From contig JAQTWT010000001.1 of the NCBI GenBank assembly GCA_028689145.1, positions 124,001-188,000 of the forward strand: 64,000 bases of DNA, in the 5' to 3' direction. This document shows, one piece after another, positions 29,489-29,629 of this stretch. Positions within the stretch are counted from its first letter, which is position 1; every line of letters starts with the position of its first letter. Below the pieces are notes generated by a model, which worked only from the letters and a program-made list of their open reading frames with translations, made no database searches and was not told the DNA's origin. The translations under genes were made by a program, and so were the position numbers. The stretch is from Gallionella sp. (GTDB taxonomy: Bacteria > Pseudomonadota > Gammaproteobacteria > Burkholderiales > Gallionellaceae).

Positions 29489-29516
29489 GGAACTATTTCA
29501 GCATTCGCTTATCTTA
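29489..29516 (+). promoter_or_regulatory. Sigma-E-like promoter of the small-RNA candidate
   Basis: GGAACTA at 29489-29495 and TCTTA at 29512-29516 with a 16-nt spacer. Sigma-E (RpoE) promoters are GGAACTT with N15-16 and then TCTGA-like, so this has one mismatch in each box. It predicts a start near 29522, exactly ahead of the first hairpin of the RNA. Confidence 0.5.
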
Positions 29517-29521
29517 TGCTA

Positions 29522-29629
29522 CAGATGATGCGAGTCATCTCCCGTTTCTCCTCCCTGAGCGGGTAGTCTTAACACTAGTTAAGGCAACCTTTGCCCCTAG
29601 CCTCCCCTTTTGGCTAGGGGCATTTTTTT
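29522..29629 (+). ncRNA. Candidate small RNA with four hairpins and anti-SD loop
   Basis: No protein frame is credible, but the stretch folds into four consecutive hairpins. H1 is GATGA/TCATC (29524-29539). H2 is CCCGTTT/GAGCGGG with a 9-nt loop CTCCTCCCT (29541-29563). H3 is CTTAAC/GTTAAG (29568-29583). H4 is GCCCCTAGCC/GGCTAGGGGC (29593-29621) followed by A and seven Ts. The H2 loop is complementary to Shine-Dalgarno sequences, as in the alphaproteobacterial 'cuckoo'/CcsR small RNAs, so it may bind translation starts. A sigma-E-like promoter lies directly upstream. Confidence 0.65.
29593..29629 (+). terminator. Strong intrinsic terminator
   Basis: Perfect 10-bp stem GCCCCTAGCC/GGCTAGGGGC with loop TCCCCTTTT and a T7 tract on the plus strand. 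No plus-strand protein gene precedes it (hemB and engB both run minus), which is the main reason to propose an RNA gene here. Confidence 0.88.

Follow-up and report, generated by a model that had tools for sequence, protein, structure and literature searches.

A conserved small RNA of the anti-hemB family behind a sigma-E-type promoter motif in Gallionella, and similar RNAs beside engB in other Gammaproteobacteria

Between the genes hemB and engB in the genome of a Gallionella sp. (Gallionellaceae, Burkholderiales; GenBank assembly GCA_028689145.1) lies a genuine, strongly conserved small RNA gene of an already catalogued family, the Rfam family anti-hemB (RF02837). It was found in a stretch of 64,000 nucleotides (nt) of contig JAQTWT010000001.1 (positions 124,001 to 188,000, forward strand), here called the window, within which coordinates are given. 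A scan of the whole window with Rfam returned one match at curated cut-offs, to RF02837 at 29538-29629 (59.8 bits against a cut-off of 49.5), and the RNA lies directly upstream of hemB on the opposite strand, the location expected of this family. Our own model, R1, scores 95.9 bits at 29521-29628, the window being itself a member of the R1 training set. The features of the locus are as follows, with the pairs of each stem that have changed on both sides counted in the alignments described below.

29489..29516, plus strand: sigma-E-type promoter, of the extracytoplasmic function (ECF) type; -35 element GGAACTA at 29489-29495, spacer N16, -10 element TCTTA at 29512-29516.
29522..29629, plus strand: small RNA of the anti-hemB family, predicted at about 108 nt (RF02837 match 29538-29629; R1 match 29521-29628).
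29523..29540, plus strand: hairpin 1, outside the Rfam model; both-side changes in 7 of 7 counted pairs.
29541..29563, plus strand: hairpin 2, stem CCCG/CGGG, loop CTCCTCCCT at 29548-29556; both-side changes in 2 of 6 counted pairs, and in 5 of 6 among the gammaproteobacterial copies.
29566..29585, plus strand: hairpin 3; both-side changes in 7 of 8 counted pairs.
29592..29629, plus strand: intrinsic terminator, stem 29592-29602/29612-29622, T7 at 29623-29629; both-side changes in 5 of 7 counted pairs.
28453..29460, minus strand: hemB, divergent from the RNA (Pfam ALAD, 454.7 bits).
29758..30348, minus strand: engB (yihA/ysxC), a GTPase gene convergent with the RNA (TIGR03598 match at G000:C7:153776-154327).

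The original prediction, made from the letters of the DNA alone, had described a T7 terminator facing the plus strand between two minus-strand genes, preceded by three further hairpins, one of them with an anti-Shine-Dalgarno (anti-SD) loop, and by a promoter GGAACTA-N16-TCTTA at the 5′ end, and each of these elements was read at the positions listed above. Transcription would start near 29522, 6 nt past the -10 element, and it is because the start is placed there and the T7 tract ends at 29629 that the RNA is predicted to be about 108 nt long. The fold of 29521-29629 is far more stable than expected from composition (-47.3 kcal/mol, where shuffled sequences average -25.9; z = -7.27), and none of 200 shuffles equals it. 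In the ensemble, eight of the nine bases of the CTCCTCCCT loop have an unpaired fraction of 97% or more and the first C one of about 20%, so that the anti-SD sequence is exposed except at its first base. The terminator loop at 29603-29611, TCCCCTTTT, is C-rich like the loop of hairpin 2. As for the neighbours, the HemB protein is 95% identical to a protein from a Gallionellales contig, and engB is the gene that the window RNA and many of the gammaproteobacterial copies have in common.

The novelty that had been claimed for the RNA, along with the statement that no named betaproteobacterial counterpart beside hemB was known, did not survive the Rfam comparison, as RF02837 is exactly such a counterpart. 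Anti-hemB is a name given in Burkholderia pseudomallei in one report (PMC3521395), and in B. cenocepacia another describes ncS04/anti-hemB as a transcript of 105 nt detected by differential RNA sequencing (dRNA-Seq), 3′ rapid amplification of cDNA ends (RACE) and Northern blot (PMC5688073). Like the window RNA, RF02837/ncS04 stands beside hemB and consists of hairpin 2 with its anti-SD loop, hairpin 3 and the terminator; the Rfam model differs in being without hairpin 1. We found no mention of “RF02837” in the literature searched, subscription papers lying outside that search.

The family is widespread among relatives. At E <= 1e-3, RF02837 has a match in 138 of the 150 Gallionellaceae genomes sampled (134 over the cut-off) and in 304 of the 399 sampled from the order (249 over the cut-off). 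Of 80 hemB-linked loci, 73 passed extraction with a pattern for the loop; among the seven that failed, L032 is truncated and L077 and L094 are visibly variant, and in the remainder (L088, L105, L106, L111) no RNA copy was found by eye within the 190 bases inspected. Fifty-six of the extracted loci were aligned together with the window, 17 near-duplicates having been omitted by eye, and covariation was assessed on a hand-drawn structure of 28 pairs in four stems. In these 57 RNAs, 95.9% of cells are paired and 21 of the 28 pairs have changed on both sides (219 cells), a result reached in none of 500 shuffles, while slid partners gave at most 13 pairs and 35 cells. The three hairpins and the terminator are thus conserved upstream of hemB among relatives, and all four stems covary. 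Hairpin 2, the bearer of the conserved anti-SD loop, is the least variable stem of this set (the 2 of 6 pairs given above, compared with 5 of 6 in the gammaproteobacterial copies).

The promoter was scored as GGAACT-N16/17/18-TCTKA, out of 11, in 75 loci (the 73 that passed the pattern, L032 and the window); the form GGAACT-N17/18-TCTKA equals N16/17 when the seventh base of the -35 element is included. The best score is 11/11 in 50 loci, 10 in 17, 9 in 6 and 8 in 2, with a spacer of 17 in 59 loci and of 18 in 14, whereas shuffles gave a mean best score of 7.2/11 and reached the observed score in 1.1% of cases. Where the score is 9 or more (73 loci), the -35 element stands 56-60 nt before the loop, but its separation from the hemB start varies between 22 and 195 nt; the motif therefore belongs to the RNA. 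Thus the sigma-E regulon motif GGAACT-N17/18-TCTKA occupies a fixed place before the RNA, and the promoter idea holds for this lineage as a conserved sigma-E-type motif travelling with the RNA. Among the 30 best-scoring loci of the order, some of which repeat members of the 75-locus set, 26 score at least 10/11 with a looser -10 element, compared with 0.21 expected, the exceptions being L137, L147, L163 and L165. Three loci, L137, L138 and L163, are taken to be Burkholderia-type from their Rfam score and shared sequence. In these the sigma-E-type promoter, kept in the lineage of the window, is unclear: L137 and L163 score 8/11, L138 scores 10 at a different distance, and the upstream sequence reads by eye like an extended -10 sigma-70 promoter, which fits the lack of regulation reported for ncS04. 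A perfect GGAACT-N17-TCTTA also occurs at G000:C23:11366-11393 (L114:1501-1528), roughly 30 bases ahead of a gene for a cytochrome b561 (Pfam PF01292); this gene may be another member of the regulon.

Many Gallionellaceae genomes have more than one RF02837 match, up to six, and the genome of the window has one copy. Ten paralogous copies with the loop pattern have no hemB in their examined flanks. Their upstream sequences differ: L117, L124, L125, L128 and L134 carry sigma-E-like motifs scoring 9-10, and L126, L132 and L133 show, by eye, a sigma-70-like sequence, so the same anti-SD loop appears under different promoters. The other two of the ten, L116 and L122, share by eye yet another sequence in this region, TTAAGGATT...CTGATGTTTTT, which may be a further alternative promoter; L122 additionally holds a second R1 match at 1272-1365, with a tRNA adjoining.

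A new finding is that many other Gammaproteobacteria, beyond the order, have RF02837-like RNAs next to engB, frequently at a polA-engB locus. Across 276 genomes sampled from the whole class, of which three belong to the order of the window, RF02837 matched 133 at E <= 1e-3, with 16 over the cut-off, two of these from that order. Among the matches listed, 67 genomes outside the order had both an RF02837 and an engB (TIGR03598) row; the RNA lies within 1 kilobase (kb) of engB in 46 of them, convergently in 42, and in the remaining 21 the two are on different contigs (16) or far apart (5). When the matches listed are grouped by RF02837 score, the RNA is adjacent to engB in 18 of the 26 that exceed 40 bits, in 28 of the 37 between 30 and 40 bits, and in 0 of the 4 that fall below 30 bits. 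When 28 of these gammaproteobacterial loci were read, the 3′ end of polA was found upstream in 19 and engB downstream in 16 (both in 12, at least one in 23, neither in 5), and there was no match to hemB in the flanks of any of the 28, some of which are shortened by contig ends. Thirty copies from 26 of these loci (L186 and L223 were left out), none of which had been used to build R1, were then aligned: in an alignment fitted to R1, 94.4% of cells are paired and 25 of the 28 pairs have changed on both sides (189 cells), compared with at most 17 pairs and 39 cells in the slid controls. With the looser -10 element TC[AT][AGT]A, 20 of the 30 copies carry the sigma-E-type motif at 10/11 or better (0.07 expected), and the other ten score 7 to 9.

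Tandem copies occur at L185, L189, L216 and L232. Those at L185 and L189 have no polA, engB or hemB in the examined flanks, each with a sigma-E-like motif, and the L189 copies adjoin a frame that reads by eye like rnfH. At L216 and L232 two copies lie within about 300 bases, beside engB; at L216 only one of the two carries a clear sigma-E-type motif. A set of 20 stretches lying beside engB yielded no Rfam match at curated cut-offs and seven weak R1 matches (E 0.0015-0.022); the source genomes of 18 lack an RF02837 match at E <= 1e-3, and those of the other two (G653, G565) have one. In six of the stretches (L234, L236, L239, L244, L248 and L251), C-rich hairpins or loops and GAAC-type motifs were seen by eye, again with no curated Rfam match, suggesting that they hold further diverged copies. 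A search of the phylum with R1 under strict filters found 18 of 299 genomes, 17 in the order of the window and all in the same class, and so our claims stay within that class.

What might such an RNA do? The reading that we favour, and think likely, is that the locus encodes a trans-acting RNA of the anti-hemB family, about 108 nt long and probably transcribed from a sigma-E-type promoter, whose anti-SD loop would cover ribosome sites. RpoE would make this RNA in Gallionellaceae under envelope stress, as the motif suggests and as the side-by-side arrangement of an ECF sigma gene, rpoE, with rseA and rseB in the genome of the window is consistent with; Hfq, whose gene is also present, would probably stabilise it; and its C-rich loops would pair with G-rich ribosome sites, such that several mRNAs would not be translated. 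By analogy with sigma-E RNAs elsewhere, mRNAs of outer-membrane proteins would be the likeliest targets. A search for GGGAGGA-N3-12-ATG gave 23 rows, including the complement of the RNA itself, where the reversed pattern gave 8; a frame of 100 codons or more begins in seven of the 23. One candidate target, L202, encodes a TonB-dependent receptor plug domain and has a leader predicted to pair with the loop at -14.9 kcal/mol; we treat it as a lead only. Several results weigh against the reading as a trans-acting sigma-E-type RNA. Loop conservation among the hemB-linked loci is inflated because they were extracted by the loop pattern, and the counts of promoter columns come from rows aligned on the motif. 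The motif was not found upstream of rpoE in the genome of the window, so that the sigma factor is something that we infer from the motif alone, and autoregulation of rpoE by the same motif was rejected. Genome-wide, the exact motif has 3 sites compared with 4 for a reversed control pattern; the motif alone would thus prove little, and this count was discarded as evidence for a regulon. Finally, ncS04 of B. cenocepacia showed no significant change by quantitative PCR in seven conditions (PMC5688073).

This last result would also suit a housekeeping RNA, made constitutively, whose anti-SD loop adjusts translation to growth and which in most species does not use the sigma-E-like motif as its working promoter; the sigma-70-like sequences read by eye upstream of L137, L163, L126 and L132, together with the ten of 30 gammaproteobacterial copies that score below 10/11, lean the same way. 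We nevertheless regard such an RNA as unlikely, given that the motif stands far above shuffles in three partly overlapping sets and that, across the 75 loci (in rows aligned on the motif), the promoter spacer drifts while the hexamers do not. The name anti-hemB suggests a different role, control in cis, in which the RNA or its transcription would regulate the divergent hemB gene. In its favour, hemB is inside the examined flank in 29 of the 30 best-scoring loci of the order, and the RNA was extracted just upstream in 73 of the 80 hemB loci. Yet the promoter keeps its distance to the loop and not to hemB, and the copies without hemB in their flanks (the ten paralogues and all 28 gammaproteobacterial loci, some cut by contig ends) argue against a role in hemB expression only. 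Cis-antisense control of hemB was rejected on position; the RNA is not mainly a cis-regulator of hemB, and we give such control little credence. The idea that the RNA encodes a small peptide, as Spot 42 of Escherichia coli does (SpfP), has still less to recommend it and strikes us as highly improbable: a 13-codon ATG frame does begin in hairpin 1 of the window, but across the 57 aligned RNAs the frame lengths range from 1 to 37 codons, and the longest 5′ frame, which 13 of the RNAs lack, reaches the loop in frame 0 in 22, in frame 2 in 18 and in frame 1 in 4. As no frame is kept, the peptide was rejected.

The gammaproteobacterial copies invite comparison with better-known RNAs. Their frequent site, polA-engB, is the ersA locus of Pseudomonas, while the window RNA is beside engB with hemB in the place of polA. 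In the window, ErsA (RF01719) has no match even at E <= 10 (cut-off 50), sX13 (RF02232) reaches 22.3 bits against a cut-off of 50, and Spot 42 (RF00021) reaches 15.0 bits against 80; since all scores are below the cut-off, the window RNA is not filed under any of the three. ErsA of P. aeruginosa differs from it in having an unstructured U-rich domain II, and the structured half of ErsA aligns to hairpin 3 and the C-rich terminator of the anti-hemB-like RNAs, not to hairpin 2. According to the paper describing it, sX13 lies 175 base pairs downstream of polA, represses mRNAs with G-rich motifs through C-rich loops, acts without Hfq and is reported only from Xanthomonadaceae; its authors note that the polA locus is shared with Spot 42 and alpha-r7 RNAs and ask whether RNAs exist there in other bacteria (PMC3771888). 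Proximity to polA and C-rich loops are features that sX13 has in common with the gammaproteobacterial copies, some of which its model matches weakly. Spot 42 of E. coli likewise resembles these copies in its arrangement, polA-spf-yihA (engB), convergent with yihA; homology to Spot 42 by sequence was rejected, as R1 does not find spf. Anti-SD loops of the window type had been compared in the original prediction to the cuckoo/CcsR RNAs, for which we take ar14 (RF02344) to stand. The likeness holds in function, CCUCCUCCC being present in hairpin loops of the consensus of this alphaproteobacterial family, and fails as a family assignment (21.8 bits in the window, cut-off 58.8). The Betaproteobacteria toxic small RNAs (RF02278; 17.0 bits in the window, cut-off 50) also have CU-rich unpaired stretches complementary to ribosome sites, but these double-hairpin RNAs of Burkholderia have two hairpins as opposed to the four of the window RNA.

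It is possible, and we propose it tentatively as somewhat short of an even bet, that anti-hemB, ErsA, sX13 and the polA/engB RNAs of many Gammaproteobacteria all descend from one ancestral, sigma-E-driven RNA with C-rich loops beside engB, which would have been renamed lineage by lineage, would have changed its promoter type in Burkholderia and would have been duplicated to other sites in Gallionellaceae. The most diverged, or a replacing, occupant of the ancestral engB site may be Spot 42. Common descent is supported by place, orientation, promoter type and a weak overlap of models: at E <= 0.5 the ErsA and sX13 models gave eight matches in the 28 gammaproteobacterial sources, one per source, all coinciding with the RF02837 match in position and strand, and likewise at L234 and L244 (2 of 8 sources in a separate search). 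It is weakened by low scores (at best 39.5 bits for sX13 and 33.9 for ErsA, all under the cut-off of 50) and by the equally high scores of other C-rich families. Twenty of the 28 sources match neither ErsA nor sX13, and ar14 matches five of the same 28 at up to 40.5 bits, above the best for ErsA. The unrelated families 6C and trpB score 20-23 bits in the window itself, and weak Rfam matches are therefore low in specificity. No paper linking anti-hemB to ErsA or sX13 was found in the literature searched (subscription papers were outside the search).

A separate observation concerns 29632-29755, between the terminator of the RNA and engB, where some 124 bases form an element whose ends, CCAAAATCCAAAATGCC ... 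GGCATTTTGAATTTTGG, are by eye inverted. Its core occurs once in the window, and a shorter core was found in 1 of 268 loci (L066); the element resembles a small mobile repeat of intergenic regions.

For the window itself the claim is a modest one, the RNA belonging to a catalogued family, and the wider gammaproteobacterial result matters more. A model built from Burkholderia finds engB-side RNAs in 46 of 67 genomes outside the order, among the matches listed, and these RNAs bear on the question that the authors of sX13 raised about polA-locus RNAs in other bacteria (PMC3771888). It may be that anti-hemB is a single branch within a far broader family of RNAs, to which the better-known regulators of Pseudomonas and Xanthomonas could also belong. 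If common descent is true, what is known of ErsA and sX13 could be transferred to hundreds of environmental species, iron oxidisers and nitrifiers among them, and control by RpoE would be directly testable.
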